Source: Bordetella parapertussis (GTDB taxonomy: Bacteria; Pseudomonadota; Gammaproteobacteria; Burkholderiales; Burkholderiaceae_A). From it: DNA of 44,457 nucleotides. The notes beneath the pieces were generated by a model, which saw nothing but the letters and a program-made list of their open reading frames with translations, did no database searches and had not been told where the DNA came from. This document shows positions 16,065-38,466 of this stretch, piece after piece. Made by a program: the position numbers and the translations under genes. The first letter of the stretch is position 1. Each line of letters opens with the position of its first letter. The stretch spans positions 1 to 44,457 of the forward strand of contig CAMAZF010000018.1 of NCBI GenBank assembly GCA_945862985.1, given 5' to 3'.

Positions 16065-17213
16065 TTAGCCATCGGAGAGACGCAGCCGAGTGGGGTTGCG
16101 TTGCTCTCGGTGGTGCCACCAGAGTGCAAGCCCGCGGTACACACCGTGCACAAACTTGCTGTAGGGCATCAGCAGAAAGAATGCCAGCACGGTAGACAGG
16201 TGAAAGAGATGCACCAGGGGCATGGCTGCAGTGGTTCGCACAGCCAGTAAGGCCAGCCCACTGGCTGCAATCAAGAGCAGCAGCACCACGAACCCTACAT
16301 CCATCACCGACTGATCGGTCCGCTTCAGGATCGGGTGGCGTTTGGAACGAGTGGCCAGCAGGCCTGCACAACCCAACACCATCAAGACGCCGCCCAAGGT
16401 TCCCAGCAAAACGGGGACACTGAAGAAAGGGTAGGGGGCTTGCAGGTCAAAGACGTAGTGGTAGAGCGTGGCCACCGAGGTGGAGGCCAGGCAGAGCATG
16501 AAGCCATAGAAGACGAGGTGGTGGTGAATACGTCGTGACTGGCTGGGCGCATCGCTCTTGTCTGCGCAGCCATCGCCACCGCCATCCAGGTAGCGCATGG
16601 TGAGCACGGCTTCTGCAGTTTCTACCGCCTCTTGCAGGGGGAAGGCAGACTCTTGGCTGCTGGCTCTCAGCATGGCCCAGTACTTTGCACCGCTGATCAC
16701 CATGGCCAGCACCGAGAACAGAAACACCGGCCCGAAGAGGCTCACCAGGAGACCGTGCGAGGTGATCTCGTAGAACAGCCCAGGCCCGGGGGCCGCGATG
16801 AGTCGCGAGGGGTCCCCCATGCTCAAGGCCCCCACAATGAAGATCACAAAAAATGCCACCACGGCCGCAAGGCTCAAGGCCAGGCCTTGCTGCTGGTAGG
16901 CCTTGCCAAGCGCTCGGGGAAAGGCAAAGGCCGTGTAGGTTTCTTTGCGGATGGCTGCCATGGCCTGAGGGACTTCGATGGCAAAGGCATGGGGGGGTGC
17001 GTACTGGCAGGCGTGATAACAAGCCCCGCAGTTATGGCAGAGGTTGGCCAGAAAGTGCATAGACTCTGGCGTGAAGGTAAGGCGCCGCTCCATGGCGGGG
17101 AACACGGCGCAGAAGCCCTCGCAATATCGACAGGAGTTGCAAATGCCCATGACCCGTGCCCCCTCTTCAACGGCAGGGGTGAGGGGAATGATGGAAATAG
17201 GGGTGTGGGTCAT
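16065..17213 (-). CDS. tcuB: TcuB-type iron-sulfur membrane protein (tricarballylate utilisation, CitB family)
   Basis: A 382-residue protein with two N-terminal ferredoxin-like cysteine sets (C25, C28, C31, C35 and C59, C62, C65, C69), then about six membrane helices. In Salmonella TcuB passes electrons from the flavin of TcuA to the quinone pool during tricarballylate oxidation to cis-aconitate. The start overlaps the tcuA stop by 4 nt. It ends 9 nt from the convergent DsrE gene. Family assignment is firm; the true substrate of this TcuA/B pair is inferred. Confidence 0.88.
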   Translation of the reverse strand: MTHTPISIIPLTPAVEEGARVMGICNSCRYCEGFCAVFPAMERRLTFTPESMHFLANLCHNCGACYHACQYAPPHAFAIEVPQAMAAIRKETYTAFAFPRALGKAYQQQGLALSLAAVVAFFVIFIVGALSMGDPSRLIAAPGPGLFYEITSHGLLVSLFGPVFLFSVLAMVISGAKYWAMLRASSQESAFPLQEAVETAEAVLTMRYLDGGGDGCADKSDAPSQSRRIHHHLVFYGFMLCLASTSVATLYHYVFDLQAPYPFFSVPVLLGTLGGVLMVLGCAGLLATRSKRHPILKRTDQSVMDVGFVVLLLLIAASGLALLAVRTTAAMPLVHLFHLSTVLAFFLLMPYSKFVHGVYRGLALWWHHREQRNPTRLRLSDG

Positions 17214-18580
17214 GCCGCTCTCGCTGCCTCTCGGCCGGCAATGCGGCCAAATACGGTTCCAATGGTCATTCCAACGCCTGCCACATAACCCTGGCCCAGC
17301 ACGTTTCCGGCCATGATCTCTCCCGCGGCAAAGAGGTTGGGGGAGTAGTCATCAAACAAAACCTGGGCACGTTCGTTCACCTTCACACCCAAGTAGGTGA
17401 AGGTGAGGCCAGGCCGCAAGGGATAGGCAGTGAACGGAGCCGTGTCGATGCGTTGAGCCCAGTGGGTCTTGGCAGGCGTGAGGCCCTCGGTGTGACAGTC
17501 GTCCAGCACGGCATGGTCAAAGCTGCCCGGCACCACGGCCTGGTTGTAGGCCTCAACGGTGGCCATGAGCGCCTGAGGATCCAGCCCAATCTTGCCAGCG
17601 AGCTCCTCGATGCTGTTGGCCGTTTCACCTGGAAACACGGGGGGCATGAAGCGTCCCTGGGCCTTGGCGTCGATGATGGAGAAGCCAATCTGGTCGGGCT
17701 GTTGCGCCACCAGCCGACCCCAAATGGCATAGCGCTTGGGCCAGAAGTCCTCTCCCTCGTCATAAAACCGCTGGGCATGCTTGTTCACCACAATGCCCAG
17801 TGAGACGCAGTCAATGCGGGTCACGATGCCGCCATCATAGAGAGGCGCGCGCGCATCAATGGCCACACAGTGGCCCTGAGTGGGATCACCAATCGACTGA
17901 GCGCCCTGCTCAATGAGCTGCTTGAGCACCACGCCTTGATTGAATCGGCACCCACGAATGAGGAACTGATCGGCCGCTGGGCCCCAGGCCTCGCGCAGCC
18001 ACTCTCGGTTGGACTCAAACCCGCCAGAGGCGACGACCACCGCCTTAGCACGAACCTCTACCTCGGCCCCGTTCTGAATGAATCGGGCGCCCAGGCAGCG
18101 CGAGCCATCAAACAGCAGTTCTGTGGCGGGGCTGTCGTAGTGCACCTCAATGCCTCTCGCTGCAGCCGAACGGTAATAGGCATTCACCAAGGCCTTGCCA
18201 CCGCCCAGGAAAAAGTTGTTGGTGCGGCCCAGATGAAGGGTCCCGCCCAGGCAGGCCTGAAACCGAACGCCATGCTGCTGCATCCAGGGCGGGCAAGTCT
18301 CCGACTCCTGAATCACTAGTCGAGCCAAATGCTCTGTGGTCTTTCCAGCCGTCACCCTCAGAAGATCCTGAAAGAACTCCTCCTCTGGGTAAGACTCACT
18401 CAGGTGCCCAAGCGGTGCGTGGTGCATGACCCGAATGTTTCGGGTGTGAATGCTGTTACCACCGCGCTCAGCTTCGGGTGAGGACTCGTATATGGCAACG
18501 CGCTTTGCGCCCTCCTGGTGAGCACTCAGTGCCGCACAGAGGGCTGCGTTTCCACCGCCAATGACCAGGACGTCGAGCAT
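17210..18580 (-). CDS. tcuA: TcuA-type FAD-dependent tricarballylate dehydrogenase
   Basis: A 456-residue flavoprotein of the succinate dehydrogenase/fumarate reductase family. The N-terminal FAD site is VLVIGGGNAALCAALSA, with ERGGNS (39-43) after it, VVVASGGFE in the middle and a C-terminal LFAAGEIMAGNVLGQGYVAG stretch (shown in parts). TcuA oxidises tricarballylate to cis-aconitate. ATG 18580 fits both the FAD motif and the tight 2-nt gap after the SDR stop. It forms an operon SDR-tcuA-tcuB. No TcuC carrier is adjacent; the TctCBA importer 3-7 kb away could supply substrate. Confidence 0.87.
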   Translation of the reverse strand: MLDVLVIGGGNAALCAALSAHQEGAKRVAIYESSPEAERGGNSIHTRNIRVMHHAPLGHLSESYPEEEFFQDLLRVTAGKTTEHLARLVIQESETCPPWMQQHGVRFQACLGGTLHLGRTNNFFLGGGKALVNAYYRSAAARGIEVHYDSPATELLFDGSRCLGARFIQNGAEVEVRAKAVVVASGGFESNREWLREAWGPAADQFLIRGCRFNQGVVLKQLIEQGAQSIGDPTQGHCVAIDARAPLYDGGIVTRIDCVSLGIVVNKHAQRFYDEGEDFWPKRYAIWGRLVAQQPDQIGFSIIDAKAQGRFMPPVFPGETANSIEELAGKIGLDPQALMATVEAYNQAVVPGSFDHAVLDDCHTEGLTPAKTHWAQRIDTAPFTAYPLRPGLTFTYLGVKVNERAQVLFDDYSPNLFAAGEIMAGNVLGQGYVAGVGMTIGTVFGRIAGREAARAA

Positions 18581-18582
18581 GC

Positions 18583-19335
18583 TTAGAACTGGTAGCGACG
18601 CAGGCCACCATCGACGGGGATGACCGTACCCGTGATGTACTGTGCCAGAGGGGAGCACAAGAAGATGGCAAGCGCGGCGAGCTCTTCCGGTTCGCCGTAG
18701 CGACCCATGGGGATCTCGTGCTCGGACTGCCATGCCCGGAATTCTGGCGTGTAGTTGCGCAGAATCTGATCGCTCATGATGCGTCCCGGTGGGATGCTGT
18801 TCACCGTCACGCCCTTTTTGCCCACCTCGCGCGAGAGCCCCTTGGCCCAGGAGTGCATGGCGGCTTTGGCGCAGAAGGCGCCATTGATGCCTTCTGGCTC
18901 CGACTTACCGGTGATGTTGATCACGCGGCCCCAGCCGTTGTCCATCATCTGGTCGATCAGCCGGTCGGTGATCTGGCGGTGGCGTGTGAAGTTCAGGGTC
19001 ATGGCCTCGTTCCAGGTGGCCTCTTCGGTGTGCAGCTTAAAGGGGCGAGAGCCGCCTGCGTTGTTGATGAGGATGTCCACGCGACCAAGGCCCTTCAGAG
19101 CGGCGCTGGAGATCACCTCTGCAGCATCCTCATCCATCGAGTCCTTCACGAGAATGACGGGCGCTTGGCCGCCGTCTTTCACAATCTCGGCTGCGACCTC
19201 TTTGAGCTTGTCTTCACGGCGTCCCACGATGCACAGATGAACACCCTCTGCAGCCAAACCCTTTGCGATGGATCGCCCAATGCCTGCGCTTGCGCCCGTG
19301 ACCAGCCCTGTTTTTCCAATCAGCTTAAGATCCAT
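18583..19335 (-). CDS. SDR-family protein with a degenerate active site
   Basis: A 250-residue short-chain dehydrogenase/reductase. The cofactor site TGASAGIG (13-20), NNAG (91-94) and a C-terminal PVDGG are normal. In the catalytic stretch, INGAFCAKAA, Lys157 is present but the Tyr four residues earlier is Ala153, and the usual Ser in the preceding NISS-type motif reads NITGKSEPEG. The canonical Tyr-Lys-Ser mechanism is therefore not available. The protein is full length and well preserved, so this may be a specialised subfamily rather than a decayed gene. It is first in the operon with tcuA/tcuB and divergent from the GntR regulator. Confidence 0.85.
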   Translation of the reverse strand: MDLKLIGKTGLVTGASAGIGRSIAKGLAAEGVHLCIVGRREDKLKEVAAEIVKDGGQAPVILVKDSMDEDAAEVISSAALKGLGRVDILINNAGGSRPFKLHTEEATWNEAMTLNFTRHRQITDRLIDQMMDNGWGRVINITGKSEPEGINGAFCAKAAMHSWAKGLSREVGKKGVTVNSIPPGRIMSDQILRNYTPEFRAWQSEHEIPMGRYGEPEELAALAIFLCSPLAQYITGTVIPVDGGLRRYQF

Positions 19336-19363
19336 GTTGTGTCCCCTTACGTTAAATTGTGTC

Positions 19364-19379
19364 CAATTGTATACAATTG
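19364..19379. promoter_or_regulatory. GntR-type operator in the SDR-tcuAB / gntR divergent promoter
   Basis: A perfect 16-bp palindrome CAATTGTATACAATTG lies in the 48-bp gap between the divergent SDR and gntR genes, 4 bp before the gntR start codon. The core TTGTATACAA resembles known FCD-type GntR operators. Binding here would block both genes. Confidence 0.75.
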
Positions 19380-19383
19380 ACCC

Positions 19384-20043
19384 ATGGCCCAGTCAAGTAC
19401 CGCTGATCGCGTTTATCAAACGCTGACCTTTGAGATTCGAGATGGAGTCCTGCGCGCCGGAGACCGCCTGGCCGAGGAATCGGTTGCTCAACGGCTTGGC
19501 TGCAGCCGAACACCGGTTCGCGAGGCCCTCTCCAGGCTGCTGAGTCGAGGGCTCGCTGAACTTGGGCCGGGCCGCGTCCTGCTGGTGCGAACCCTCAACC
19601 GCGCGCAGATCGTGCAGCTTTATGAGGTGCGTCAGATCTTGGAAGGGGCCTCCGCTCGCCTTGCCGCCAAGCATGCATCCAAGGCGGAGGTCGATAGCCT
19701 CTTAGAGATGCTCGCTGCACAGCGAAAGTGCTCCAAGCGCAGCGGACCCAAAGTGGCGCATGAACTCGCTGCCATGAACACCGACTTCCATCATGCCTTG
19801 GTCGAGGCCGCCCATAACCCCTATCTGCAAGAGATGACCCAGCAGATGGAGGAATCACTCTGGCTGCTGGGAAACACCACCTATTCCGCCAAGGGGCGCC
19901 CCCTCCAAGCGCTGGCGGAGCACGAGCAGTTGGTTCAGGCCATCGGGGAGGGCGATGAGGCTGGGGCGGAGGCTTTGGCACGCGCTCACATTGAGCGCGC
20001 CCTTCAGGTGAGGCTCGCCATGCCCAGGCCACTCGCTCGATAG
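19384..20043 (+). CDS. GntR-family regulator, FadR/FCD subfamily
   Basis: A 219-residue regulator. A winged helix-turn-helix (about residues 8-70: ...AEESVAQRLGCSRTPVREALSRL...) is followed by an all-helical FCD ligand-binding domain (about 76-210) with FHHALVEAAHN and AHIERAL, where metal-coordinating His residues normally sit. FCD regulators typically sense carboxylic acids. It is divergent from SDR-tcuAB, with a perfect palindrome at the shared promoter, so it probably represses that operon and itself until a carboxylate ligand appears. Confidence 0.9.
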   Translation: MAQSSTADRVYQTLTFEIRDGVLRAGDRLAEESVAQRLGCSRTPVREALSRLLSRGLAELGPGRVLLVRTLNRAQIVQLYEVRQILEGASARLAAKHASKAEVDSLLEMLAAQRKCSKRSGPKVAHELAAMNTDFHHALVEAAHNPYLQEMTQQMEESLWLLGNTTYSAKGRPLQALAEHEQLVQAIGEGDEAGAEALARAHIERALQVRLAMPRPLAR

Positions 20044-20047
20044 AGGA

Positions 20048-21162: not shown

Positions 21163-21326
21163 GAAAGGGGATCCCTCTATAAGGAAAAATTTATGTGAAT
21201 GAACAACTTAGGGCGCGATTCTGATTTGAGTATTTCAGTATTGTCCCTAACAGATTCCCCCGCAAGTCTGGGCTAGTGTTGTGTTCGGCAAATCTCAGCC
21301 TTTTCTTTTAAGAAGGAGTTCCTTTC

Positions 21327-22340: not shown

Positions 22341-22360
22341 GATCCTTTGATGTCCCGAGG

Positions 22361-22400
22361 CCCCGGCTCCCATTCACTCGTGAGCCGGGGTTGTTATTTA
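22361..22400 (+). terminator. Terminator/attenuator between tctC and tctB
   Basis: Stem CCCCGGCTC (22361-22369) pairs with GAGCCGGGG (22382-22390), with a 12-nt loop and a following TTGTTATTTA. Its position suggests partial termination, so that the binding protein is made in excess over the membrane subunits. Confidence 0.8.
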
Positions 22401-22439
22401 TACGCCTCTAAAACGTAAATGGAATGATCGAAAGGTCTC

Positions 22440-22904: not shown

Positions 22905-24404
22905 ATGATTGACGCAGGCGCGTTTTCTTCAGCAGTTGATGTTCTTTTTTCAGGCATCGATGCCTGGATCTGGGTTCTGCCCGGCTTGGCCATTGGCCTG
23001 TTCTTTGGGGCCATGCCCGGTATCTCCATCACGATGGCCATGGCGCTCTTCCTGCCCATGACGCTCTACATGGAGTTTCTGCCGGCCATCATTTTTCTCA
23101 CCTCCATCTTTACCGGGGCAGGGTTTGGCGGCAGTGTGCCTGCCATTCTCATGAACATTCCAGGCACGTCATCTGCCGTGGCCACTACCTTCGATGGCTA
23201 CCCCATGTGTCGCAGGGGGCTGCACAATGAGGCGTTGGGAGCGGCGTTGGGTGCGTCCGTCACAGGCGCATTAATTTCTTACATCGTTCTGATGTTTCTC
23301 ATCGTCCCCCTCTCTAACATCGTTATCCGAATGGGCCCTTTTGAGATGCTCGGGATTGCCATCTGGGGCATGCTCATGCTGGGTTCACTGGCCGGCGCAA
23401 GCCTGGTGCGGGGCTTGCTGGCGGGGGTGCTGGGCCTGCTCATCGGCACCGTGGGCATGAATACGGCGGGCTACATGCGAGGCACCATGGGGGTCCCGCA
23501 GCTGCTCGATGGCGTGTCAGCGGTTCCTGCGCTCATGGGCCTGCTTGCCGCCAGCGCACTCTTTAATCTGGTGAATGCGAAGTTCATTGTGGAGGAGGGC
23601 GGAGGCCGAGAGATCAGCGTCGCCAAGCTCTTGAAGGGCTTTTTCTCTGTGCTCAACCATAAGGTCTGCCAGATTCGCGGAACCGCCATCGGCATTCTGA
23701 TTGGGGCCACGCCGGGGGTGGGTTCATCGGTCTCGAACCTGCTCTCCTATGCAGAGGCCCGTCGAACCTCCAAAGAAAAGGAGTCCTTTGGCAAGGGCAA
23801 TGTGGAGGGTGTGATTGCGGCTGAATCGGCCAACTCCAGTTCCGAAGGCGGCTCGATGGCCACCATGCTGGCGCTGGGCATTCCCGGCGGCGGCGCCACG
23901 GCGGTGCTCTTGGCGGCCTTTGCCATGCACGATGTGGTGGGCGGGCCAAACTTCATTGATAAGAGCAAGGATGTGGTCTACACCATCATCCTCAGCAATA
24001 TTGGTCAGTGCTTGCTGCTCTTTCCCATTGGCTTCCTGTTCGTCTACTTCGCGAGCTCCATTGTGAAGGTCCCACTGCGGTTCCTGATTCCAGTGACGCT
24101 GATCGCCGCCACCTTCGGTGCCTTTGCCATTGATGGAACCGCGGCCGGACCGGTCACTGTCGTGGTCTTCGCTCTGCTGGGATGGGCGCTCTCACGCTAC
24201 AAATACCCACCCTCTGCGGTGATTGTGGGCATTCTCCTGGGCGGGCTGGTAGAGGATGAGGCCCTCAAGTCACTCCAGCTCAGCTTTGGTAACGCCTGGT
24301 ACTTCTTGGAGCGTCCAGGCGCATTGGTGATCTTCGGCCTCATCGTGCTCTCGCTCCTTGCCACCTTCCGCGCGAAGCGAAAAGCTGCTCAGGTCAAGGT
24401 ATAG
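22905..24404 (+). CDS. tctA: Tripartite tricarboxylate transporter large membrane subunit (TctA)
   Basis: A 499-residue inner-membrane protein with about 12 helices. Family hallmarks are GLFFGAMPGISITMAMAL, GGSVPAILMNIPGTSSAVAT and ALGIPGGGATAVLLAAF (in parts), the two repeated GxPG regions thought to form the substrate path. It works with TctB and TctC in sodium- or proton-driven uptake of carboxylates. Its 3' end overlaps the convergent enolase-superfamily gene by 16 nt. Confidence 0.93.
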   Translation: MIDAGAFSSAVDVLFSGIDAWIWVLPGLAIGLFFGAMPGISITMAMALFLPMTLYMEFLPAIIFLTSIFTGAGFGGSVPAILMNIPGTSSAVATTFDGYPMCRRGLHNEALGAALGASVTGALISYIVLMFLIVPLSNIVIRMGPFEMLGIAIWGMLMLGSLAGASLVRGLLAGVLGLLIGTVGMNTAGYMRGTMGVPQLLDGVSAVPALMGLLAASALFNLVNAKFIVEEGGGREISVAKLLKGFFSVLNHKVCQIRGTAIGILIGATPGVGSSVSNLLSYAEARRTSKEKESFGKGNVEGVIAAESANSSSEGGSMATMLALGIPGGGATAVLLAAFAMHDVVGGPNFIDKSKDVVYTIILSNIGQCLLLFPIGFLFVYFASSIVKVPLRFLIPVTLIAATFGAFAIDGTAAGPVTVVVFALLGWALSRYKYPPSAVIVGILLGGLVEDEALKSLQLSFGNAWYFLERPGALVIFGLIVLSLLATFRAKRKAAQVKV

Positions 24405-25510
24405 CGACGAAAGGCGTAGCGCTCGAGTTTCTCTTCATCGAGTGCTACGCCAATACCTGGCGGAAACTGCAGACGAATGCTTCCGCTGGTCATGTCGAGC
24501 TTGTTTTCCACAATGTCATCCGTGGTCTTGATGGGCCCCACGCATTCAAGGCCATCGAGCACCGCGTGGCTGGTACTCGAAAACAAGAGCTCTGCCATGG
24601 TGTTCACACCCAGGCCAAAGCCGTGACCCACCACCACCCCGAGGCCAGCGGCCTCCGCCGTAGCCAGCATGCGGGATGCTTGTAGGAAGCCGCCTTGCTT
24701 CATGACCTTGAGCTTGACGAGGTCCACGGACTGGGTGCGGATCAGCGCGATCAGGCTGGCGTAATCGGTGACCGACTCATCGGCCATGACGGGCATGGAG
24801 ACGGACCTGCGAATCCTCGCCAACCCCTCGAGGTCGTCGGCAGCCACAGGCTGCTCCATGAGCTCAAGGGCATAGGGCTCCAGCAAGCGGCCCAGCTCTA
24901 GGCCCTCATCCACTGAGTACCCGGCGTTGGCATCCACTCGGAGCGCGAAGTCGGGGCCAACGGCCTCGCGAACGGCCCGCACGCGATCTGCGTCCGCCTT
25001 CACACCGCCACCCACCTTAATCTTTGCGGATCTCCAGCCCTTCTCGTGCCACTTCACCGCCTCTGCTGCGGCCTCTTCGGGACTGACAATGCCAATCCAT
25101 GCGTTGAGTCGAAAGGTGTCGCGCACGGGACCTCCGATGAGGGTCGCGACGGAGAGCCCAGCCTTACGGCCCATGAGGTCCATACAGGCCATCTCGATGG
25201 CTGCCTTTGCATCTAGAAATCCCGACTGCGCTTGGGCAAGACGACCCATCAGGGACTGCACATTCAGTGGGTCCTGGTGGAGCGCGGCTGGGGCAAGGTT
25301 CTCTACCAGCGCATCGAGCGATTGATCAATGGTCTCGGTGGAGTAGCCGGGGGAGGGGTCAATGTTCCCCAGGCCAATGTCGCCATCGGCATCGGTGATG
25401 CGCACCACGGCACTCTTTTGGGAGCGCTTGGTGATGTAGGCATTCTTGAAGCCCGGTCCTGCGAGTGGAACCTCTACACCGAAGACTTCAATCTGACGAA
25501 GCGAGGTCAT
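24389..25510 (-). CDS. Enolase-superfamily enzyme (muconate lactonizing/mandelate racemase group)
   Basis: A 373-residue protein with the N-terminal capping domain and the (beta/alpha)7-beta barrel. Catalytic and metal residues are visible: K163-I-K165 in AKIKV, metal ligands D193 (RVDAN), E219 (MEQP) and D244 (ADES), and a second Lys at about K268 in LVKLKVMKQGG. This pattern fits the MLE subgroup (cycloisomerases, OSB synthases, dipeptide epimerases), in which two lysines flank the substrate. Substrate is undetermined. Its ATG overlaps the TauD-family stop by 4 nt, so the two enzymes are co-translated. Confidence 0.88.
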   Translation of the reverse strand: MTSLRQIEVFGVEVPLAGPGFKNAYITKRSQKSAVVRITDADGDIGLGNIDPSPGYSTETIDQSLDALVENLAPAALHQDPLNVQSLMGRLAQAQSGFLDAKAAIEMACMDLMGRKAGLSVATLIGGPVRDTFRLNAWIGIVSPEEAAAEAVKWHEKGWRSAKIKVGGGVKADADRVRAVREAVGPDFALRVDANAGYSVDEGLELGRLLEPYALELMEQPVAADDLEGLARIRRSVSMPVMADESVTDYASLIALIRTQSVDLVKLKVMKQGGFLQASRMLATAEAAGLGVVVGHGFGLGVNTMAELLFSSTSHAVLDGLECVGPIKTTDDIVENKLDMTSGSIRLQFPPGIGVALDEEKLERYAFRRYTLT

Positions 25511-26379
25511 GCAGCCTCCGCGTAAGCGATGGGCTGAGTGCCCTTGATCTGGGCGCGGTGCATCAGACGACGGCTATTGGGGTCAAAGCTGTCTCGACGA
25601 TGCAGGGTGCCGAAGTTGTCCCAGACAATGGTGTCTCCCACCCTCCAGACCTGCTCCATGGTGAACTGAGGCTGCGTGGCATGCGCCCAGAGCGCGTCGA
25701 GGAGGGCTTCGCTCTCATCAACAGGGAGCCCAACGATGTAGCTGTTTCGACGACGCCCAAGGAAGAGGAGGGGCTTGCCGGAACCGGGATGACGAATGAC
25801 CAGTGGATGATGCGCGCCGGGAGCCTCACGAACGTCGGTGACGGGTTTCATGCCAATGCGCATGATGCCTGCCGAGTTGTACGTACTGTCGTGAACGGCC
25901 TTCTTGCCTTCAATGGCCTTATGGAGGTGTGTGGGCAGGCTGTCGTAGGCCAAGTAAAGGTTTGACCAGTAGGTGTTCCCTCCTTCAGGGGGGACTTCGA
26001 TCCCGTGGAGCACAGCGCCCTTGGGCACGCTCTGAGCATAGGTCATGTCGCTATGCCAAATGGCCTCGCCGTCTCCGAGGCCGCCGATGGGTGCCTCTCC
26101 TTGCTTGATATTGGAGATGACGTTGAGCTCTGGAAACTCGGGAAGGTAGGGCTTTCCCTGTGGATTGGGCCCTGGGGGTTCCAATTCACCAAGTTCGCGT
26201 GAGAAATTCAAGAGCTCTGGGTCTGACAGCGGCTGGTCGCGAAACCGCAGCACCAGATGCTGGGCCCACAACGCGTGGAGGCGCTCACGCGCCTCGGGGC
26301 TGATGGGCTTGCGAATATCCACATTGAGCACGTCCACACCAATGGATGCTGCAATGGGTCGAATTTGAATGTCGGTCAT
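25507..26379 (-). CDS. TauD/TfdA-family Fe(II)/2-oxoglutarate dioxygenase
   Basis: A 290-residue cytoplasmic oxygenase. The iron triad is H109-x-D111 (WHSDMTY) and H260 (GTLHRRDSF); the 2-oxoglutarate-binding Arg is R271 or R275 in RRLMHR. WDNFGTLHRRD is typical of the family, which includes TauD (taurine) and TfdA (2,4-D). It could hydroxylate a substrate that then enters the downstream enzymes; nothing in the sequence reveals which. It is divergent from the LysR gene across 69 bp and is the first gene of a two-gene operon with the enolase-superfamily enzyme. Confidence 0.9.
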   Translation of the reverse strand: MTDIQIRPIAASIGVDVLNVDIRKPISPEARERLHALWAQHLVLRFRDQPLSDPELLNFSRELGELEPPGPNPQGKPYLPEFPELNVISNIKQGEAPIGGLGDGEAIWHSDMTYAQSVPKGAVLHGIEVPPEGGNTYWSNLYLAYDSLPTHLHKAIEGKKAVHDSTYNSAGIMRIGMKPVTDVREAPGAHHPLVIRHPGSGKPLLFLGRRRNSYIVGLPVDESEALLDALWAHATQPQFTMEQVWRVGDTIVWDNFGTLHRRDSFDPNSRRLMHRAQIKGTQPIAYAEAA

Positions 26380-26441: not shown

Positions 26442-26457
26442 TTTAATCATGATTAAA
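26442..26457. promoter_or_regulatory. Palindrome over the lysR start codon, candidate operator
   Basis: A perfect 16-bp palindrome TTTAATCATGATTAAA is centred on the lysR ATG, in an A/T-rich 69-bp divergent promoter. A related half-site, TAAATCATTA, lies about 30 bp upstream. The T-N-A-rich symmetry is compatible with LysR binding and autoregulation. Confidence 0.55.
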
Positions 26458-28847: not shown

Positions 28848-30422
28848 CTAGAGCCGGAAGCTGGCCTGCTCTTGCGCATCCAGCTGCGCAATCAGGCCAG
28901 TCTCCCACTCTAGGTAGCGACGGGCGGATTCCAGGTTCCCGTCGTGCCGGTCGTGCACAAAGAAAAGGAAGTCGATGCAGTCCTCATCCGGCGGACTGTG
29001 AGGGCTTGACTCCGTATCCAGGCCCGCCTGCAGCCAGGCCGTCATCCCGCCCTCTATCAGTCCCATCACCGAGAGGCCCGCTCGCTCACAGTCCTGGGCA
29101 ATGCATGCAGCCTGAACGGGGTCGTCATGCAACATCAAGACGGACTGCCCCTGGGGTAGCCCGGGGTTGCGGCCAAGCCGCGCGCGACAGGCCCACCGGG
29201 CGCCTGCGGCATGTTGCTTTCTGAAGGCCTGTGAGCCTCGAAAGTCGAGCAGCACCGCTTGTCCTGACACCAGAAGGCGATGGGCGTCTTGCGCACTCAA
29301 GGTGGGGAGCACCTTGGTCTGGGGCCCTTGGGGCGCGAATGCTCTCCAATCTGCAGGCAGGTCTGTTGAGGCGGTCTTGCGCAGAATGAGGGGCTCATAA
29401 CCCAAGGTCTTGAGCCAGATGGCAGCCAGTGCGGCGCGTAGGCCGGTGTCATCTGACAACACGATTCGGGCGCGGCGAATGCCCGCCGTCAGATCGGTGG
29501 CCTGCACGATCTGCCCGCTCCAGGCGTGCTGGGCCCCCGGGAGATGATCAGTCGCGTATTCCTCCTCGCTGCGCACATCGACCAGGAAGAGGCATCGCCC
29601 TGCATCCTGAGCCAGCGTCATCAGCGCGGGTGGATCGATCTCCTCTAGCCCGTGCTCGGCCATGAGCTGCTTGGCACGTGTGCGACTGATTGCGATGGCC
29701 TCGGGCGTCAGGCTAGGCATGGTGGGTTTTGGATTGTCACGCTGAAGGGTGTGGCCGGCCAGCGCCCAGCCCTGAGTGCCATTCTCAATGGCGTAAATAG
29801 GGTTGGGCAGCTTGAGCGTGGCCAGCCCCGACCAGCCAATGAGGCCTCGAGTGCGCCCAGCGCAGGTGATCACGATGGGCAGACTGGAGTCCTTCACCAG
29901 CTCGCCAACTCGGTGTGCGAGTTCGCCATTGGGCACGCACTGTGCGGTGGGCAGCGTCATTTTTGCGTACTCGTTCGGGGGGCGACAGTCGAAGAGTGCG
30001 AAAGACTTACCCTGTTGCATCCAGTCATGCAGTTCAGAAGGGGTCATCATGGTGGGGTGGTCTCGGTGCTCCACCAGTTCGCCCAGCGTCTTGCTGGGAA
30101 GGTTGACGCCCTTGAAGTGGGTGAATCCTGCTGCCGCCCAAGCCGGCGCGCCGCCTTGCATCCAGTCGACCCGCGTGTAGCCCATGGCGCGAAGCAGATC
30201 TGCCGAGCGTTCAGCAAGGCCGTCTCCGTCGTCCATCAGAATGATTTCGGCATGCACATGAGGGACGAGTCGAATGATTTCAGTCTCGAGCGTGGAGTAA
30301 GGGCAGTGCACGCTGAGGAATGGATGTCCCTCGCCGTACTGACCATGCTCGCGAATGTCGAGCAGAGCGACCTCGTCTTGGCTATGAATGCGGGCCTTGA
30401 CGGCCTGAGGGGTCATGCTCAT
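28848..30422 (-). CDS. Four-domain rhodanese-like protein, only domain 2 with active-site Cys
   Basis: A 524-residue cytoplasmic protein with four rhodanese modules (about residues 1-100, 125-225, 260-350 and 375-480). Only the second has the catalytic loop: TCAGRTRG with C187. The matching loops in modules 1, 3 and 4 read MDDGDG, LSDDTG and LHDDP, without Cys. A C-terminal tail of about 45 residues (FLFFVHDRHDGN...YLEWE) is outside the rhodanese fold. ATG 30422 was chosen for its 4-nt overlap with the hydrolase stop and the GGAG upstream. Three inactive modules suggest binding or regulatory roles. Confidence 0.86.
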   Translation of the reverse strand: MSMTPQAVKARIHSQDEVALLDIREHGQYGEGHPFLSVHCPYSTLETEIIRLVPHVHAEIILMDDGDGLAERSADLLRAMGYTRVDWMQGGAPAWAAAGFTHFKGVNLPSKTLGELVEHRDHPTMMTPSELHDWMQQGKSFALFDCRPPNEYAKMTLPTAQCVPNGELAHRVGELVKDSSLPIVITCAGRTRGLIGWSGLATLKLPNPIYAIENGTQGWALAGHTLQRDNPKPTMPSLTPEAIAISRTRAKQLMAEHGLEEIDPPALMTLAQDAGRCLFLVDVRSEEEYATDHLPGAQHAWSGQIVQATDLTAGIRRARIVLSDDTGLRAALAAIWLKTLGYEPLILRKTASTDLPADWRAFAPQGPQTKVLPTLSAQDAHRLLVSGQAVLLDFRGSQAFRKQHAAGARWACRARLGRNPGLPQGQSVLMLHDDPVQAACIAQDCERAGLSVMGLIEGGMTAWLQAGLDTESSPHSPPDEDCIDFLFFVHDRHDGNLESARRYLEWETGLIAQLDAQEQASFRL

Positions 30423-31372
30423 GCGTGTGTTCTCCAAGGCGTCAGAAAGTCCCAGAGCGCCTTATAGACCAATTCTGGGTCTTGCTCGGCGGGATAGTGT
30501 CCGGTGGGAATGTCGCAGCCTTGCAGGCTAGGGGCCCAGTCAGACCAGGCCTGCAGCACCCTAAAGTGCCGGCCGCAGTGGCTGTTGCTTCCCCACAGCA
30601 CCATGACGGGACACTCTATCTTTTTCTGACCGAAGTCTGCGGTGTCCATGGCCAGGTCAACGGAGACAGTGGCGCGATAGTCTTCACACACCGCATGAAT
30701 CTGCTCTGGGGTGGTGCAGCGCACGTACTCGGCCATGGCTTGCGGCGAGAAGATCTGCAGGCCGACGCCCTTTTTGTTGAGCTTGTACTGAATGTAATAG
30801 TTCAGGTCTGCGCAGAGCAGCTTCTCAGGAAAGGGGGCCTTTTGCGCCATAAAGAACCAGTGGTAGGCCTCGAGGCCCCAGCCCATGGTGACGTTGGTGA
30901 GCACGTGGTGCGTGGGGGCAATATCCAGAGGAACAAATGCCTTGATGCGCTCGGGGTGATCGAGCGCCATGCGAAAGCCCACGCGGCCACCGCGATCATG
31001 GCCCACCACGGCCATCTCCTGAATGCCAAAATGATCGGCAACCGCGAGGAGGTCTTCCGACATGGACCGAAATGAGTAACCACTGTGGTCCTCTCCGCCG
31101 TCGGGCTTGCTGCTGTCTCCATAGCCTCTCAGGTCCGGAATCAGCAGGGTGAAGTGCCGTGCAAGCGAGGGAGCGATCTTATGCCAGCTGGCGTGGGTGA
31201 GTGGGTTTCCGTGAATCAGCAGCAGTGCGGGGCCTTGTCCGCCCTTGACGCCGTGAATGGTGGCGCCACGTCCGGGAACGTCAAACCGCTCAAACCCCTC
31301 GAAGAGCGCTTCGCCCCAGGGCACAAAATCAGGAGCATGTACGGCTCTAATGTGATCAACAGAATGAATCAT
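30419..31372 (-). CDS. Alpha/beta hydrolase, haloacetate dehalogenase-like
   Basis: A 317-residue protein closely resembling fluoroacetate/haloacetate dehalogenases. It has LLIHGNPLTH, the nucleophile elbow GHDRGGR with D126, LDIAPT with acid D150, and catalytic-type H292 in TGHYPAEQ. The halide-binding set of fluoroacetate dehalogenase (His, Trp, Tyr) appears as H171-W172 in YHWFF and Y216, and CEDYR (229-233) is also conserved. Such enzymes cleave C-halogen bonds in 2-haloacids, but some members are ordinary esterases. The ATG at 31372 fits the domain start. It is divergent from the LeuC-type gene and coupled to the rhodanese gene. Confidence 0.78.
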   Translation of the reverse strand: MIHSVDHIRAVHAPDFVPWGEALFEGFERFDVPGRGATIHGVKGGQGPALLLIHGNPLTHASWHKIAPSLARHFTLLIPDLRGYGDSSKPDGGEDHSGYSFRSMSEDLLAVADHFGIQEMAVVGHDRGGRVGFRMALDHPERIKAFVPLDIAPTHHVLTNVTMGWGLEAYHWFFMAQKAPFPEKLLCADLNYYIQYKLNKKGVGLQIFSPQAMAEYVRCTTPEQIHAVCEDYRATVSVDLAMDTADFGQKKIECPVMVLWGSNSHCGRHFRVLQAWSDWAPSLQGCDIPTGHYPAEQDPELVYKALWDFLTPWRTHA

Positions 31373-31468
31373 GGAAATCTCTCGCAGCAGGTCGATTGAA
31401 AAACAGGGATGATCCTTGAAAGTACTCAGCGTACCGCTCTGTTCAACGTTTTCGATATAGAGGAAATC

Positions 31469-32752
31469 ATGGGGTCCACCCTTGTTGAGAAGATCCTGGC
31501 AGCACATGCTGGCCTGCCCGAGGTGCGGCCTGGCCAGACCGTCGTTGCATCCGTCGATTTCGCCATGCTCACCGATGCGCGTGCGCCGAATGCCCTGAAG
31601 ATGCTGAATCGATTGGGCGAGCAGCCCCTGCGCTTTGCGACCAAGACAGCCTTGGTACTGGACCACTACTCGCCTCCTCCGAATGTGGAGGCTGCTCGAA
31701 CCCACTCCGCGATGCGCAGCTTCTCTCAAAAGGAAGGAGCAGTCCTGTACGACATTGGGGACGGAATCTGCCATCAGGTGCTGCCCGAGAAAGGGCACCT
31801 CACCTGTGGTGACTTGGTGGTGGGCACTGACAGCCACTCCGTGACTTACGGTGCGTTCAATGCGCTGGGAATGGGCGTGGAGGGGACGGATCTCTCAGCG
31901 GTGATGGCGACGGGAAAGCTCTGGTTTCAGGTGCCTCACACCATCCTGATTCGCCTGAATGGTCGTCTGGCCCCTGGGGTCTGGGCCAAGGACATCACGC
32001 TCACGCTGCTGGGTCTTTTGGGCGCAGAGGGTGCAAACTACCTGGCCATTGAGTTTGTGGGTGAGGCCATTTCCCATATGGACGTAGATGACCGCATGAC
32101 CTTGTGCAATCACTGTGCCGAGCTGGGGGCCAAGGCCGTGCTCCTACAGGCCGATGAAAAGACACTGAGCTGGCTGGAGGCCAGAGGCGCAAAGCCGCCC
32201 AGGCCAGTGCATGCCGATGCAGACGCGGTCTACTTGCGTACCATCGAGATTGATGTCTCGGCCATTGAGCCCACCGTCTCTCGACCCCACGAGGTCGATG
32301 ACGTGGTCCCTGTCAGTCAGGTGAAGGGGGTTCCCATTCGGTTTGCCTTGATTGGAACCTGCACAAATGGGCGGCTCGACGATATTCGTCAGGCTGCAGC
32401 CATTCTGCGTGGCAAGCAGCTTGCTCCCGGGGTGCGAATGATCGTCACACCAGCCTCGCGCGACATCTACCTTCAGGCTGCCAGGGAGGGTCTCATTGAG
32501 GTCCTCACCGCGGCCGGGGCCTCAGTGGAGGCTGCAGGATGTGGCACCTGTATCAGTGTGACGGGGCATCTCTATCCGGGCGATCATGAAACCATCATCA
32601 GCACCGCGAATCGAAACTTCAAGGGACGATTGGGAAATGAACTGGCCGAGATCTGGCTGGGTTCTGCAGCCACGGTCGCGGCCTCTGCATTGCGTGGGGA
32701 GATCACTGACCCAAGAACCGTTGAGCATGGGACCTGGAGGGCCGCAGCATGA
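31469..32752 (+). CDS. LeuC/aconitase-family hydro-lyase large subunit (2,3-dimethylmalate dehydratase-like)
   Basis: A 427-residue protein of the aconitase superfamily. The three [4Fe-4S] cysteines are C298 (GTCTNG), C358 and C361 (GCGTC), and DSHSVTYGAFNALGMGVEGTD is the conserved substrate region. ATG 31469 follows an AGAGGAAAT site; the upstream frame is not supported. Its ATGA overlap with the small subunit and then with an ICL-family lyase repeats the gene order known for 2,3-dimethylmalate metabolism in nicotinate fermentation, though the biosynthetic LeuC reaction or another hydroxyacid is possible. It acts as the large half of a two-subunit dehydratase/isomerase. Confidence 0.85.
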   Translation: MGSTLVEKILAAHAGLPEVRPGQTVVASVDFAMLTDARAPNALKMLNRLGEQPLRFATKTALVLDHYSPPPNVEAARTHSAMRSFSQKEGAVLYDIGDGICHQVLPEKGHLTCGDLVVGTDSHSVTYGAFNALGMGVEGTDLSAVMATGKLWFQVPHTILIRLNGRLAPGVWAKDITLTLLGLLGAEGANYLAIEFVGEAISHMDVDDRMTLCNHCAELGAKAVLLQADEKTLSWLEARGAKPPRPVHADADAVYLRTIEIDVSAIEPTVSRPHEVDDVVPVSQVKGVPIRFALIGTCTNGRLDDIRQAAAILRGKQLAPGVRMIVTPASRDIYLQAAREGLIEVLTAAGASVEAAGCGTCISVTGHLYPGDHETIISTANRNFKGRLGNELAEIWLGSAATVAASALRGEITDPRTVEHGTWRAAA

Positions 32753-33273
32753 GCAAGTCGCTGATTCAGGGGCAGGCCTTGGTGCTGGGAGATGCAGTCA
32801 ATACCGACATCCACTGCTCCTCGAAGTACCTTCCCGGAAAGGACAACGTGTTCGTGGCTGCGCATGCTTTTGAAAAGCTCTCCGCAGGCTTTCCTGACCG
32901 CGTGAAGGCCTGCGCATCGCCCATTCTGGTGGCCGGTGAGCATTTCGGAATCAACTCCTCTCGAGAGCAGGCCGCGCACGTGATGCGCGAAATGGGGGTG
33001 CGGGCGGTGTTGGCCAAGTCCTTCGCCCGAGCGTTTTATCGCAATGGCATCAATAACGGACTCGCCCTGCTGGCCTGTCCCACCGGCGATATTCAGGAGG
33101 GTGACGTCCTCTCCATTGATCTTGCTTCCGGTCTGGTGCAGGTGGAGGGTCGGCCCGATCGCTCTGGAGACGGACTTCCGCCGGTGCTCTTAGATCTCAT
33201 CTCAGAAGGAGGACTTCTGAGCTATCTGGCTCGTCATGGAGGCTGGCCAGAACCGATACGAGCAGCACGATGA
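32749..33273 (+). CDS. LeuD-family hydro-lyase small subunit
   Basis: A 174-residue swivelling-domain subunit. NTDIHCSSKYLPGKD, where the YLxG loop governs substrate choice, and GEHFGINSSREQA are the conserved elements. It overlaps the large subunit gene and the lyase gene by 4 nt each. The YLPGKD loop is of the LeuD/homoaconitase-like type rather than AcnA. Together with the large subunit it should form a dehydratase or isomerase of a hydroxy-di- or tricarboxylate. Confidence 0.87.
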   Translation: MSKSLIQGQALVLGDAVNTDIHCSSKYLPGKDNVFVAAHAFEKLSAGFPDRVKACASPILVAGEHFGINSSREQAAHVMREMGVRAVLAKSFARAFYRNGINNGLALLACPTGDIQEGDVLSIDLASGLVQVEGRPDRSGDGLPPVLLDLISEGGLLSYLARHGGWPEPIRAAR

Positions 33274-34160
33274 GGCTGGCAGCAGATAAGCGCCGTGCCT
33301 TGCGCGCTGCGCTCAGAGGCACCGATCCGCTCTCGGCTCCGGGGGTCTATGACGGCTACGGTCTTCGTCTGGTTCAGGCGGCGGGCTTTTCCTTCGCCTA
33401 CGTCTCCGGTAATGCAGTGTCCGCCTGTCTCTTGGGCCGACCCGACCTTGGCTTGGTGGATCTCACCCTCATGGCCGATCACCTTCGACGCATTACGCCT
33501 TGTGTGGATCTGCCGGTCGTCTGTGATGCTGATGCCGGGCATGGTGGGCCTTTGAACATTCAGCGCCTCATCTATGAGTTTGAGCAGGCCGGTGTGGCGG
33601 GGCTCCACATTGAAGATCAGGTGCAGCCCAAGCAGTGTGCGCAGCTCCCAGGAGCCCGCTCCGTGGTCTCTCGGGAAGAGGCCGTGGCTCGTATTCGTGC
33701 GGCCTGTGCAGCCCGCTCCGGGCCAGCCGAGGATGCCATGGTGGTGATTGGTCGAACTGACTGTGCTGCTGCGCTGGGGGATGACGAGGCGATCGAACGT
33801 GCCCAGGCATACCTCCAGGCTGGAGCCGATGCCGTATTCGTTGAGCTCAAGCCCAGCCCCGATCTCCTCATTCGAGTTCGGAAGGCTCGGGAGCGCGTGG
33901 GTGGACCCTGCGTGGTCAACATGAGTGTGGATTCAAGCCTCATGGCCCTCGACCCATCATCGTGGCGCGCGGCAGGCATTGACCTCGCAATCTTTCCGGC
34001 GCTGGCTCGCGGCGCATTCGGACAGGCCATGCAAGAGGCCCTCGCGCTTCTCGCTTCTGGCCAACACCAGGCCCTCTCCCAGAGGCTGCTCTCATCCCAG
34101 TCCTATGGGGAGGTGCTGGGCCTGTCCGAGGCCCAGGCCTGGTCGGCTCAGTTTGAGTGA
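33270..34160 (+). CDS. Isocitrate lyase/PEP mutase-family enzyme (2,3-dimethylmalate or methylisocitrate lyase-like)
   Basis: A 296-residue TIM-barrel protein. APGVYDGYGLRLVQAAGF, the metal-binding DADAG (86-90) and HIEDQVQPK (113-121) match the lyase branch of the family. The usual active-site loop K(K/R)CGH reads K121-Q-C123-A-Q125: the catalytic Cys is kept but Gly-His are replaced. That supports carbon-carbon cleavage with an altered substrate pocket. It is the third gene of the hydro-lyase operon. A role in cleaving the isomerised acid into two smaller acids is inferred. Confidence 0.85.
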   Translation: MRLAADKRRALRAALRGTDPLSAPGVYDGYGLRLVQAAGFSFAYVSGNAVSACLLGRPDLGLVDLTLMADHLRRITPCVDLPVVCDADAGHGGPLNIQRLIYEFEQAGVAGLHIEDQVQPKQCAQLPGARSVVSREEAVARIRAACAARSGPAEDAMVVIGRTDCAAALGDDEAIERAQAYLQAGADAVFVELKPSPDLLIRVRKARERVGGPCVVNMSVDSSLMALDPSSWRAAGIDLAIFPALARGAFGQAMQEALALLASGQHQALSQRLLSSQSYGEVLGLSEAQAWSAQFE

Positions 34161-34169
34161 CCGTCCTGC

Positions 34170-35177: not shown

Positions 35178-35187
35178 AGACTTACTC

Positions 35188-36096: not shown

Positions 36097-36098
36097 GT

Positions 36099-37286: not shown

Positions 37287-38466
37287 GACGCGCATCGTAG
37301 GCGTAAATGTGTGGCTGATCCATGAGGGTTTCTGAGAGCAGACGGAGCGCAAGGTTACGACCCCAGGCCAGAGGGCCTGAGAGCTGAAAGATCTCGCCCG
37401 CTCGAATGGCACCCGCCTGAACGGCCGCATTCCGTCTCCATCGCAGGTTCGCGAATGTGGCCAGGGCTTTCGCAGGCCTGTCTGGGTCCTGCCGCGCCAT
37501 CACGTTGGCAAGCACAACAGCGTCCTCTAAGCCCATGGCGGCACCTTGTGCCAAATGCGGCCGCATGGGGTGTGCGGCATCACCAATGAGTGCAATTCGA
37601 CCATCGGCTTGGGCGGCGGCCTGATGCAAGGGCGCTGTCGCCCAAAGGGGCCATGCAAGCCAATCCTGCGCCGCGAGCACGAGATCTCTCAGTTCTGAGG
37701 GATGAGGGGACAGGGCCTCGATCAGTGCCTGTGGTTCGACTGGCTCTCCCCAGCCTGGGCTGAGGTCTGCAAAGCTCGGGACGATGGCGACCATGGCCAG
37801 CGACTGCCCTCCCTGCACGGGATAGGTGACCAGATGCCGTCCTGGCGCCGAAAAGACCTGAACCGATCGCCCCCAGGCCGATGACGCATCCAGTTTCAGG
37901 ACGGTACGGACTGCTGTCTGGCCGGCTGCAACGGGTGCTTGAGCGGCGGGCAGGCTTGCGCGTAGTGGGCTCCAGAGGCCGTCGGCGCCAACCGCCCAAG
38001 GAGCCTGGAGACAGGCTCCACTCTGAAGTCTGAGCTGCACGCTGGAGTCCATCTCCTGTGCCGAGGCGATGGCCTGAGCCCATCGAATCTCGAGCCCTTG
38101 GGCCGCATGCGCTTGAAGCAGGATGCGACTCAGGTCTGAGCGAAGGATGGTGAGATAAGGCGAGCCGTAGCGCTCAACGGCTCTTGCCCCGAGCCGGAGG
38201 CTGCCCAGGGTGGCTCCGCGCTCGAGGGTACGAAGGATCAGTTGCTCGGGGTGGCCCGCTGCCTCACGTACGGCGGACCCCACACCCAAAGCATCCAATA
38301 CGCGGACTGCATTGGGACCGAGCTGAATGCCGCCTCCCGCGGGACTCGGCTGTGAGGCTTTATCTAGGGTGATCGAATGGATTCCCTTTTGGGCCAGCGC
38401 AATGCCAGCAGCCAGCCCTGCCACTCCGGCCCCCACGATCAGCGGTGGGAGGCGATGAGCGTTCAT
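37270..38466 (-). CDS. FAD-dependent monooxygenase (salicylate/3-hydroxybenzoate hydroxylase-like)
   Basis: A 398-residue class A flavoprotein monooxygenase. GAGVAGL (12-18) binds ADP, GADGLWS (160-166) is the DG motif, and GDAAHPMRPHLAQGA (295-309) is the GD motif that contacts FAD ribityl and flavin. The family hydroxylates aromatic or heteroaromatic acids with NAD(P)H. No ring-cleavage dioxygenase lies in the window, so its link to an aromatic pathway is unproven. It overlaps the upstream protease gene by 4 nt and the CoA-transferase gene by 17 nt, which places it in the same transcript. Confidence 0.87.
   Translation of the reverse strand: MNAHRLPPLIVGAGVAGLAAGIALAQKGIHSITLDKASQPSPAGGGIQLGPNAVRVLDALGVGSAVREAAGHPEQLILRTLERGATLGSLRLGARAVERYGSPYLTILRSDLSRILLQAHAAQGLEIRWAQAIASAQEMDSSVQLRLQSGACLQAPWAVGADGLWSPLRASLPAAQAPVAAGQTAVRTVLKLDASSAWGRSVQVFSAPGRHLVTYPVQGGQSLAMVAIVPSFADLSPGWGEPVEPQALIEALSPHPSELRDLVLAAQDWLAWPLWATAPLHQAAAQADGRIALIGDAAHPMRPHLAQGAAMGLEDAVVLANVMARQDPDRPAKALATFANLRWRRNAAVQAGAIRAGEIFQLSGPLAWGRNLALRLLSETLMDQPHIYAYDARHVGTV

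Follow-up and report, generated by a model that had tools for sequence, protein, structure and literature searches.

A conserved gene island of Bordetella parapertussis as a candidate route for the catabolism of a substituted C4-dicarboxylate

The window analysed here is the 44,457-nucleotide stretch of Bordetella parapertussis DNA given by contig CAMAZF010000018.1 of assembly GCA_945862985.1 (C18:1-44457 in our numbering), and it carries an island of predicted carboxylate transport and conversion genes. The genome under study, G000, consists of 60 contigs (2.17 Mb) and is 91.5% complete. Genes were called from a list of open reading frames (ORFs) together with family searches in Pfam and NCBIfam, the latter with curated cut-offs (Table 1). 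A first-pass annotation had named a TctCBA importer, TcuA/TcuB, MmgE/PrpD, LeuCD, ICL-family, PdxA2-like, CoA-transferase and HMGL proteins, and GntR and LysR regulators, and all of these families are present where it placed them. In addition, this region encodes an SDR dehydrogenase, two ChrA halves, MLE, TauD, rhodanese and hydrolase family proteins and an FAD monooxygenase.

Table 1. Genes of the island and of the block adjoining it, with strand and basis of assignment
Feature	Position	Strand	Basis
TcuB, membrane Fe-S partner of tricarballylate dehydrogenase	16065..17213	-	NCBIfam TIGR02484
TcuA, FAD tricarballylate-dehydrogenase-type flavoprotein	17210..18580	-	PRK08274; ORF to 18733, start ~18580 set by homology
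SDR dehydrogenase	18583..19335	-	Pfam adh_short_C2
GntR/FCD regulator	19384..20043	+	Pfam
Two ChrA-family halves	20048-20602, 20599-21162	-	Pfam Chromate_transp
TctC-TctB-TctA importer	21327-22340, 22440-22895, 22905-24404	+	Pfam
MLE-subgroup enolase superfamily enzyme	24389..25510	-	Pfam MR_MLE
TauD-type Fe/2OG dioxygenase	25507..26379	-	Pfam TauD
LysR regulator	26449..27477	+	Pfam
MmgE/PrpD-family enzyme, putative isomerase/lyase of substituted C4-dicarboxylate	27455..28837	+	Pfam
Multi-domain rhodanese	28848..30437	-	Pfam Rhodanese, three stretches; four domains by eye
Alpha/beta hydrolase, fluoroacetate-dehalogenase-like	30419..31300	-	PDB matches; start ~31290
LeuC/HacA-type hydro-lyase large subunit	31409..32752	+	TIGR01343, PRK00402, TIGR02086 over cut-off
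LeuD/DmdB-type small subunit, C-S-x-K-Y-x-x-G loop	32749..33273	+	TIGR02087 over cut-off
ICL/PEPM-superfamily lyase, own clade, catalytic-loop Cys kept	33270..34160	+	Profile searches, tree, alignment
PdxA2-like dehydrogenase, altered substrate site	34170..~35180	-	Profiles, alignment
HMGL-like	35188-36096	-	Pfam
CoA-transferase III	36099-~37285	-	Pfam
FAD monooxygenase (FMO)	37270-38466	-	Pfam

Gene order in the core of the island (16065-35180) is largely kept in G002, G006 and G003, three genomes from the same genus. The order common to G002 and G006 is TcuA-GntR-ChrA-ChrA-TctC-TctB-TctA-MLE-TauD-LysR-PrpD-rhodanese-LeuC-LeuD-lyase-PdxA2, and identity to the window reaches 86-89% in PrpD, 71% in LeuC and 79% in TcuA. 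G006 also has TcuB and the SDR and gave no match to the hydrolase; in G002, whose stretch begins within TcuA, the hydrolase is present and the interval from TcuA to GntR gave no SDR match. G003 keeps the genes from the SDR (84% identical in G006 and G003) through LeuD, including the hydrolase, with TctCBA inverted; its lyase is not visible because the contig begins at LeuD. On a 5-kb contig of G019, from the same family, lie part of PrpD, the rhodanese, LeuC, LeuD, the lyase and part of PdxA2, with no hydrolase match. Among the loci compared, orthologs of TctC (at least 50% identity) occur only in these three same-genus genomes and in L053, a metagenome-assembled genome (MAG) from Lake Lanier, and orthologs of TauD (likewise at least 50%) only in the former three.

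The block of FMO, CoA-transferase and HMGL genes (35188-38466) is separated from PdxA2 by a gap of a few bases and is probably co-transcribed with it. No match to the three genes was found beyond PdxA2 in G002 (1.2 kb plus 17.5 kb) or G006 (1 kb), and the ORFs lying there gave no NCBIfam match at 1e-60. Because the block has no counterpart beside PdxA2 in these two genomes, it looks like an addition in the window's genome. The end at 38466 set by the first-pass annotation is thus too wide; the island shared with G002 and G006 ends at PdxA2 (~35180). A tRNA-Arg(ACG) gene is located at 39194-39270, near the right side of the island.

Across the order, 379 genomes from 152 genera were searched for LeuC, PdxA2 and PrpD with thresholds (E <= 1e-120, 1e-90 and 1e-110, respectively) fixed before the search. 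LeuC was found in 19 genomes, PdxA2 in 18 and PrpD in 20, each in five of the 152 genera. The overlaps amount to 16 genomes for LeuC and PdxA2, 17 for LeuC and PrpD and 16 for PdxA2 and PrpD, with all three proteins in 15, and four of the five genera are common to each pair. The genus-level Fisher test, which ignores relatedness, gives p = 1.2e-6 per pair; Fisher values are too small because relatives are treated as independent, the genus-level ones being less affected. Exceptions run in every direction: LeuC without PdxA2 (G003, G079, G166) and the reverse (G310, G372), PrpD without LeuC (G120, G232, G372) and the reverse (G079, G318), PdxA2 without PrpD (G310, G318) and the reverse (G003, G120, G166, G232). 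PrpD and LeuC lie on different contigs in all eight genomes of genus g15 (family f13) that have both, and at least tens of kb apart in G037 (LeuC contig of 94 kb) and G084 (338 kb), although different contigs of draft assemblies, some of them short in g15, are no proof of distance except for long ones such as those of G037 and G084. The gene block is more than chance: by the co-occurrence test that the first-pass annotation had proposed, these genes travel together, as the synteny and the order-wide overlap show, also where the genes are unlinked. The distribution is patchy, confined to a scattered minority of relatives. MLE and the hydrolase were searched for in a sample of 374 genomes. At 440 bits or more, a cut picked after the matches had been seen, MLE is present in 20 of these, 18 of which belong to the PrpD set; the preset E <= 1e-90 gives 29/374 genomes and 8/151 genera, and the comparison of MLE with LeuC and PrpD crosses the two samples (152 genera for both). 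The hydrolase (E <= 1e-75) occurs in 47/374 genomes and 20/151 genera and is not island-specific.

The first-pass annotation had seen in this gene set the logic of the methylcitrate cycle without a citrate synthase. The island PrpD scores 39.2, 35.5 and 31.1 bits against curated PrpD models with cut-offs of 950, 575 and 458, the lyase scores 201.7 and 175 bits against PrpB models with cut-offs of 354.4 and 353, and LeuCD falls far under the AcnD/AcnB cut-offs. A complete, adjacent prpB-prpC-acnD-prpF set resides at C5:53914-59757 (L016), each member over its curated cut-off (PrpB 512.1 vs 353 and 414.6 vs 354.4; PrpC 720 vs 550; AcnD 1748 vs 1420; PrpF 726 vs 441 bits). C18 indeed has no citrate synthase, but the genome has two (C12, C5). 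In a lyase tree of 88 rows (78 different), which is midpoint-rooted and in which the program flagged some joins of long branches as unsafe, the island lyases are gathered in one clade (29 rows with duplicates counted; support 100/99), and the 23-row PrpB clade and 2,3-dimethylmalate lyase (DML) lie outside it. Taken together, the scores under the curated cut-offs, the position in the tree and the prp set on C5 lead us to reject the methylcitrate cycle for the island, and to a variant of the cycle, which could appeal to the superfamily likeness of the PrpD, aconitase and ICL folds, we give next to no credence. Leucine synthesis by the island LeuCD was also rejected (leuC TIGR00170, 229 vs 560 bits; leuD TIGR00171, 39 vs 116 bits); the genome has a stronger PF00330 match at C22.

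The residues of the lyase set it apart as well (residue counts here and below include the window row). The catalytic-loop Lys and Cys are kept in 21/21 rows, and [ST]GN replaces the SGG of PrpB in all 21. The loop reads KRCGH in family f46, KKCGH in f13, KQCAQ in the window, KRCAQ in its f1 sisters, in L053 and in five of the seven cassette contigs described below, and KRCGQ in two. D86, D88, K121 and C123 are invariant in 18 rows that include PrpB and the L015 lyase; we take D86 and D88 to be the metal-binding Asp residues and C123 the catalytic-loop Cys of the ICL/PEPM superfamily.

LeuCD is repeatedly paired with an ICL-superfamily lyase, and an importer often adjoins the pair, as is seen in distant loci and in a second set in the window's own genome. 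The latter (C5:22197-25065, or L015 6198-9066) has ABC-transporter-like genes followed by lyase-LeuC-LeuD; its lyase has a KKCGH loop, and its LeuC scores over the cut-offs of two subfamily models for 3-isopropylmalate dehydratase. Distant LeuC relatives were found in 49 plasmid records at 34-45% identity, and seven of these loci were read. In three of the seven (Cupriavidus sp. EM10, B. plantarii and Paraburkholderia largidicola), an ICL-family lyase lies within ~6 kb of LeuC. The diverged set of Cupriavidus has TctC in front, that of B. plantarii adjoins an isochorismatase gene, and that of P. largidicola (L181 5986-13092) forms a LeuC-LeuD-hydantoinase B-hydantoinase A-RutB-like-lyase cluster, whose gene content is suggestive of conversion of a cyclic imide or lactam to a substituted maleate. 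Two haloarchaeal plasmids carry CoA-transferase-HMGL-LeuC-LeuD operons (L175 5841-9844; L179 3715-7841; LeuC 43-45%), which look like a CoA-dependent substitute for the lyase. The remaining two loci contain a LeuC-LeuD-leuB set (Deinococcus) and neither lyase nor CoA-transferase-HMGL (Skermanella).

These neighbourhoods bear on the idea that the island is a pathway for substituted maleates arising from ring or amide cleavage, in which LeuCD would hydrate a dialkylmaleate and the resulting dialkylmalate would be cleaved. Nicotinate fermentation, with its pair of 2,3-dimethylmaleate hydratase and dimethylmalate lyase, is the model. Besides the hydantoinase/RutB-like and isochorismatase genes next to the diverged sets, this idea can draw on the membership of LeuD in the LeuD/DmdB subfamily TIGR02087, on the presence of DML (3fa3) among the nearest solved lyases (142.8 bits vs 145.6 for PrpB) and on a Mo-hydroxylase inside the f13 cluster. 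However, DML sits on a long branch outside the island clade, and no hydantoinase or isochorismatase was found among the window genes scanned; we consider this pathway improbable.

The PdxA2-like protein scores below the curated PdxA and PdxA2 cut-offs. In 17/17 rows PGHTE is changed to DEHxM, GVN to GVT and RTS to [YF]TT, and the same changes are present in alphaproteobacterial plasmid copies. The canonical residues are kept in the genome's own PdxA, in three PdxA homologs of the cassette genomes (L169-L171) and in 4jqp and 2hi1. The altered positions presumably correspond to the substrate residues H-T, N and R of E. coli PdxA (136-137, 283 and 292), which bind the phosphorylated substrate. 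No SBD_N (DUF1537) kinase was found in the 91.5% complete genome, and on this and the changed residues we reject a phosphothreonate route.

The nearest PDB matches of the MmgE/PrpD enzyme are iminodisuccinate (IDS) epimerase and cis-aconitate decarboxylases (1e-51 to 4e-38), with 2-methylcitrate dehydratase at just 2e-7. H86, D89, H108, H159, K207 and K273 are invariant in 15 sequences. Characterised MmgE/PrpD substrates are reported to have a common 1,4-dicarboxylate C4 backbone (PMC12290011), and the six invariant positions match the carboxylate-binding residues given there (D89 being their Glu91), a match made by motif and not by alignment to their protein. Ahead of the HPTAP motif there are eight inserted residues that IDS-epimerase lacks and that vary little or not at all among the 11 aligned rows. 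Iminodisuccinate catabolism was considered and rejected: the IDS-epimerase segment is 29-31% identical among the 15 best matches in the loci compared.

The chemistry of these families converges on a substituted succinate, maleate or malate in free form. Substituted succinates are substrates for MmgE/PrpD enzymes and TcuA, while LeuCD converts acids of the maleate type into those of the malate type and back; malates substituted at position 2 or 3 are cleaved by lyases of the ICL superfamily, and PdxA/TtuC/IPMDH-type enzymes oxidise malate-type acids. We propose, with a probability of roughly 45%, that the island serves the catabolism of a substituted C4-dicarboxylate, i.e. an alkyl- and/or hydroxyl-substituted succinate, maleate or malate, mainly as the free acid and not as the CoA ester. 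The reactions, their order and the substrate class are deduced from family membership; gene content, synteny, co-occurrence, clade identity and residue changes are what was observed. TctCBA would import the acid, which the MmgE/PrpD enzyme would epimerise, dehydrate or otherwise isomerise. In this lineage, TcuAB would desaturate a substituted succinate and pass the electrons to the quinone pool. LeuCD would then act on the unsaturated acid, by hydration or isomerisation, to give a malate substituted at position 2 or 3, which the ICL-family lyase would cleave by a retro-Claisen reaction to a 2-oxo acid (pyruvate or glyoxylate) and a short carboxylate. The PdxA2-like enzyme would oxidise a malate-type intermediate without phosphate, being joined in other lineages by tartrate- or isopropylmalate-type dehydrogenases. 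Citraconate, methylsuccinate and dimethylmaleate are candidate substrates only. A wider claim, that this is a CoA-independent route for environmental substituted succinates, maleates or malates to which MmgE/PrpD, PdxA2, LeuCD and ICL members were each recruited for new substrates, and the free-acid counterpart of the CoA route for itaconate and methylsuccinate with its parts spread over Alpha- and Betaproteobacteria, is tentative and somewhat doubtful.

The main rivals of the dicarboxylate proposal are tricarboxylates and separate pathways, and a number of observations weigh against the proposal, beginning with the limit on contig distance in g15 given above. TcuA exceeds both curated tricarballylate cut-offs (PRK08274, 702.8 vs 369 bits; a second model, 604.5 vs 372.55), and TcuB passes TIGR02484 (386 vs 246.6) and misses PRK15033 (481 vs 524). 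By curated cut-off TcuAB is a tricarballylate dehydrogenase, and at least one tricarboxylate may therefore be involved. The LeuD loop is KYxxG in 26/26 rows (mostly KYLPGK or KYNMGK, in one case with M after G), with C, S, K, Y and G invariant, and its Lys could bind a third carboxylate. The matching loop is YLRT in homoaconitase 2pkp, YLVY in 3vba and YLPG in the window; no row of the 26 has the Arg of YLRT, which we take to be the substrate-loop residue for the third carboxylate, and its absence argues against a third carboxylate at that position.

The first-pass annotation had supposed that an external branched tricarboxylate is imported, that PrpD and LeuCD isomerise it and the lyase splits it, and that one of the products then passes through activation by the CoA-transferase to cleavage by the HMGL homologue. 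Part of this stands, as an imported carboxylate ending in the LeuCD-lyase step is the best logic of the locus, in view of the TctC-LeuC-LeuD-lyase cassettes and the Cupriavidus set; that it is a branched tricarboxylate is unproven, given a LeuD that lacks the homoaconitase Arg though it has the invariant Lys. Tricarboxylates also have a C4-dicarboxylate backbone, as PMC12290011 indicates, and the family name of TctC does not fix the substrate. TcuA-like genes (24-35%) are found within ~5 kb of lyases related at 38-44% at three loci (L061, L071 and L077), where desaturase and lyase may be coupled too. The CoA arm is not in the island shared with G002 and G006, but CoA-transferases (29-38%) lie near PdxA2 in genus g15, and the haloarchaeal operons join CoA-transferase and HMGL to LeuCD. 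Weighing these points, we regard the tricarboxylate pathway as distinctly unlikely.

The dicarboxylate proposal also has to accommodate lineages with only part of the genes. Among named relatives, those nearest in the lyase search (L053-L060) belong to Betaproteobacteria and Burkholderiales. A minimal TctC-LeuC-LeuD-lyase cassette is present in Limnohabitans sp. 15K and in six MAG contigs (L054, L055 and L057-L060; L054-L060 for all seven), flanked in Limnohabitans by genes that on our own reading are leuS/lptE-like and proA-like. An orthologous PdxA2 is missing from six of these seven genomes (one without a hit at E <= 1e-40, five with hits at 36-43%), and one, G399, has an ortholog at 57%. 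The opposite case is given by two Rhizobiales plasmids, of Neorhizobium NCHU2750 and of Phyllobacterium zundukense, on which PrpD (74%), the hydrolase (70-72%) and PdxA2 (53%) lie together with dehydrogenases of the tartrate and isopropylmalate types, ChrA pairs, TctABC and an SDR, and no LeuC, LeuD or lyase match was found in the 33 kb read. Pacificitalea manganoxidans has PrpD (72%), PdxA2 (54%) and tartrate/isopropylmalate-type dehydrogenases, with no ChrA or hydrolase match in the stretch read. With the two Rhizobiales plasmid stretches lacking LeuCD-lyase and six cassette genomes lacking an orthologous PdxA2, there may therefore be two pathways that often meet.

Carried further, the island would be a set of neighbouring pathways with no common substrate: a tricarballylate unit (TctCBA-TcuAB, with cis-aconitate entering the TCA cycle), one unit of PrpD, PdxA2 and hydrolase, and one of LeuCD and lyase. 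The restriction of TcuA/TcuB orthologs (at least 64%) to family f1 among the loci compared fits this. Yet LeuC, PdxA2 and PrpD are found apart less often than together, even when unlinked, and MLE tracks PrpD (18 shared of 20 each), so that such a set is, on balance, unlikely. L053 unites both halves, with LeuC-LeuD-lyase, class I fumarase, PdxA2, hydrolase, PrpD, TctABC, tartrate-type dehydrogenase and rhodanese. The PrpD gene of L053 (14596-16012) is broken over more than one frame, by sequencing error or decay. L123 and L053 each have a tartrate-type dehydrogenase that scores above the 470-bit cut-off of the curated TTC model (580 and 542 bits, respectively).

The substrate may also differ between lineages. 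In the four f46 stretches with both MLE and lyase (L123, L125-L127), MLE lies between LeuD and lyase, with TctC; f46 stretches add an Amidohydro_2 protein (Pfam), which we take to be LigJ-like, and an HpcH/HpaI aldolase, and some of them also BKACE and an FMN dehydrogenase. That the lineage-specific enzymes differ (Mo-hydroxylase, LigJ-like amidohydrolase, BKACE) suggests a wider substrate. Outside G002, G006, G003 and L053, TctC is only 25-36% identical to that of the window among the loci compared, and the imported compound therefore need not be the same.

Finally, MLE, TauD, rhodanese, ChrA, SDR and the hydrolase are given no step in the proposed route. MLE is below the TIGR02534 cut-off (187 vs 335 bits). 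By eye, the active-site loop contains a Cys (CAGRTRG) in just one of the four rhodanese domains, the second. The ChrA-type pair recurs in the two Rhizobiales plasmid clusters (L172 22890-23991; L173 23947-24982) at 26-38% identity and perhaps exports an anionic product rather than chromate. The hydrolase is nearest to 3qyj (5e-83), i.e. Alr0039, and to fluoroacetate dehalogenases (6e-72 to 4e-60), and its motifs GHDRGxR, DIxPT, YHWFF, CxDYRA and GHYP are invariant in 9/9 rows. We take these to hold the catalytic Asp-His-Asp, the two Arg and the halide His/Trp/Tyr of fluoroacetate dehalogenase, a set that is kept, and the hydrolase is putatively fluoroacetate-dehalogenase-like by motifs. One of its relatives beside PrpD and PdxA2 on the two Rhizobiales plasmids is annotated as a haloacetate dehalogenase.

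If the dicarboxylate proposal is true, four families whose usual default names are 2-methylcitrate dehydratase, 4-hydroxythreonine-4-phosphate dehydrogenase, isopropylmalate dehydratase and methylisocitrate lyase would be mis-annotated in these genomes and would form one pathway. Curators could then tell these enzymes apart by their residue signatures (DEHxMF/GVT/[YF]TTP in PdxA2, CSxKYxxG in LeuD, [ST]GN in the lyase), and the substrate would point to branched or hydroxylated acids on which these bacteria draw, a pool that to our knowledge is not tracked at present. No publication on the cluster was found in the CC-licensed PMC literature, which leaves out most subscription journals, and as far as the literature searched shows the pathway is not yet in print.

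Several known systems share parts with the island. The 2-methylcitrate cycle (PrpC, PrpD or AcnD/PrpF, PrpB) uses the same three superfamilies, but the island has no synthase and its enzymes are under the cut-offs. With the tricarballylate system it has in common TcuA, TcuB by one of two models and an importer nearby; here these are embedded in a larger shared block, and TctCBA stands in place of TcuC. PdxA2, the D-threonate/D-erythronate 4-phosphate dehydrogenase, shares the fold family and the His/Lys motifs, but the island protein scores under the cut-offs and has changed substrate residues, and no SBD_N kinase was found in the genome. Fluoroacetate dehalogenase and Alr0039 match the hydrolase strongly in sequence and in the presumed catalytic set, with the island hydrolase sitting among carboxylate genes. 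DmdAB and DML of nicotinate fermentation likewise couple a LeuCD/DmdAB-type hydro-lyase to an ICL/PEPM-superfamily lyase. The island lyase, however, belongs to a clade of its own marked by [ST]GN, some members of which have C-A-Q or C-G-Q for C-G-H in the loop, and an importer replaces the ring-fermentation genes. The itaconate/methylsuccinate cluster contains an MmgE/PrpD (S)-(R)-methylsuccinate isomerase (PMC12290011, PMC9875883) and also places this family in carboxylate catabolism, with the same conserved positions of the active site as judged by motif. By the same accounts, that route depends on CoA (Ict, Ich, Ccl and an acyl-CoA dehydrogenase), whereas the island has LeuCD and a CoA-independent lyase.

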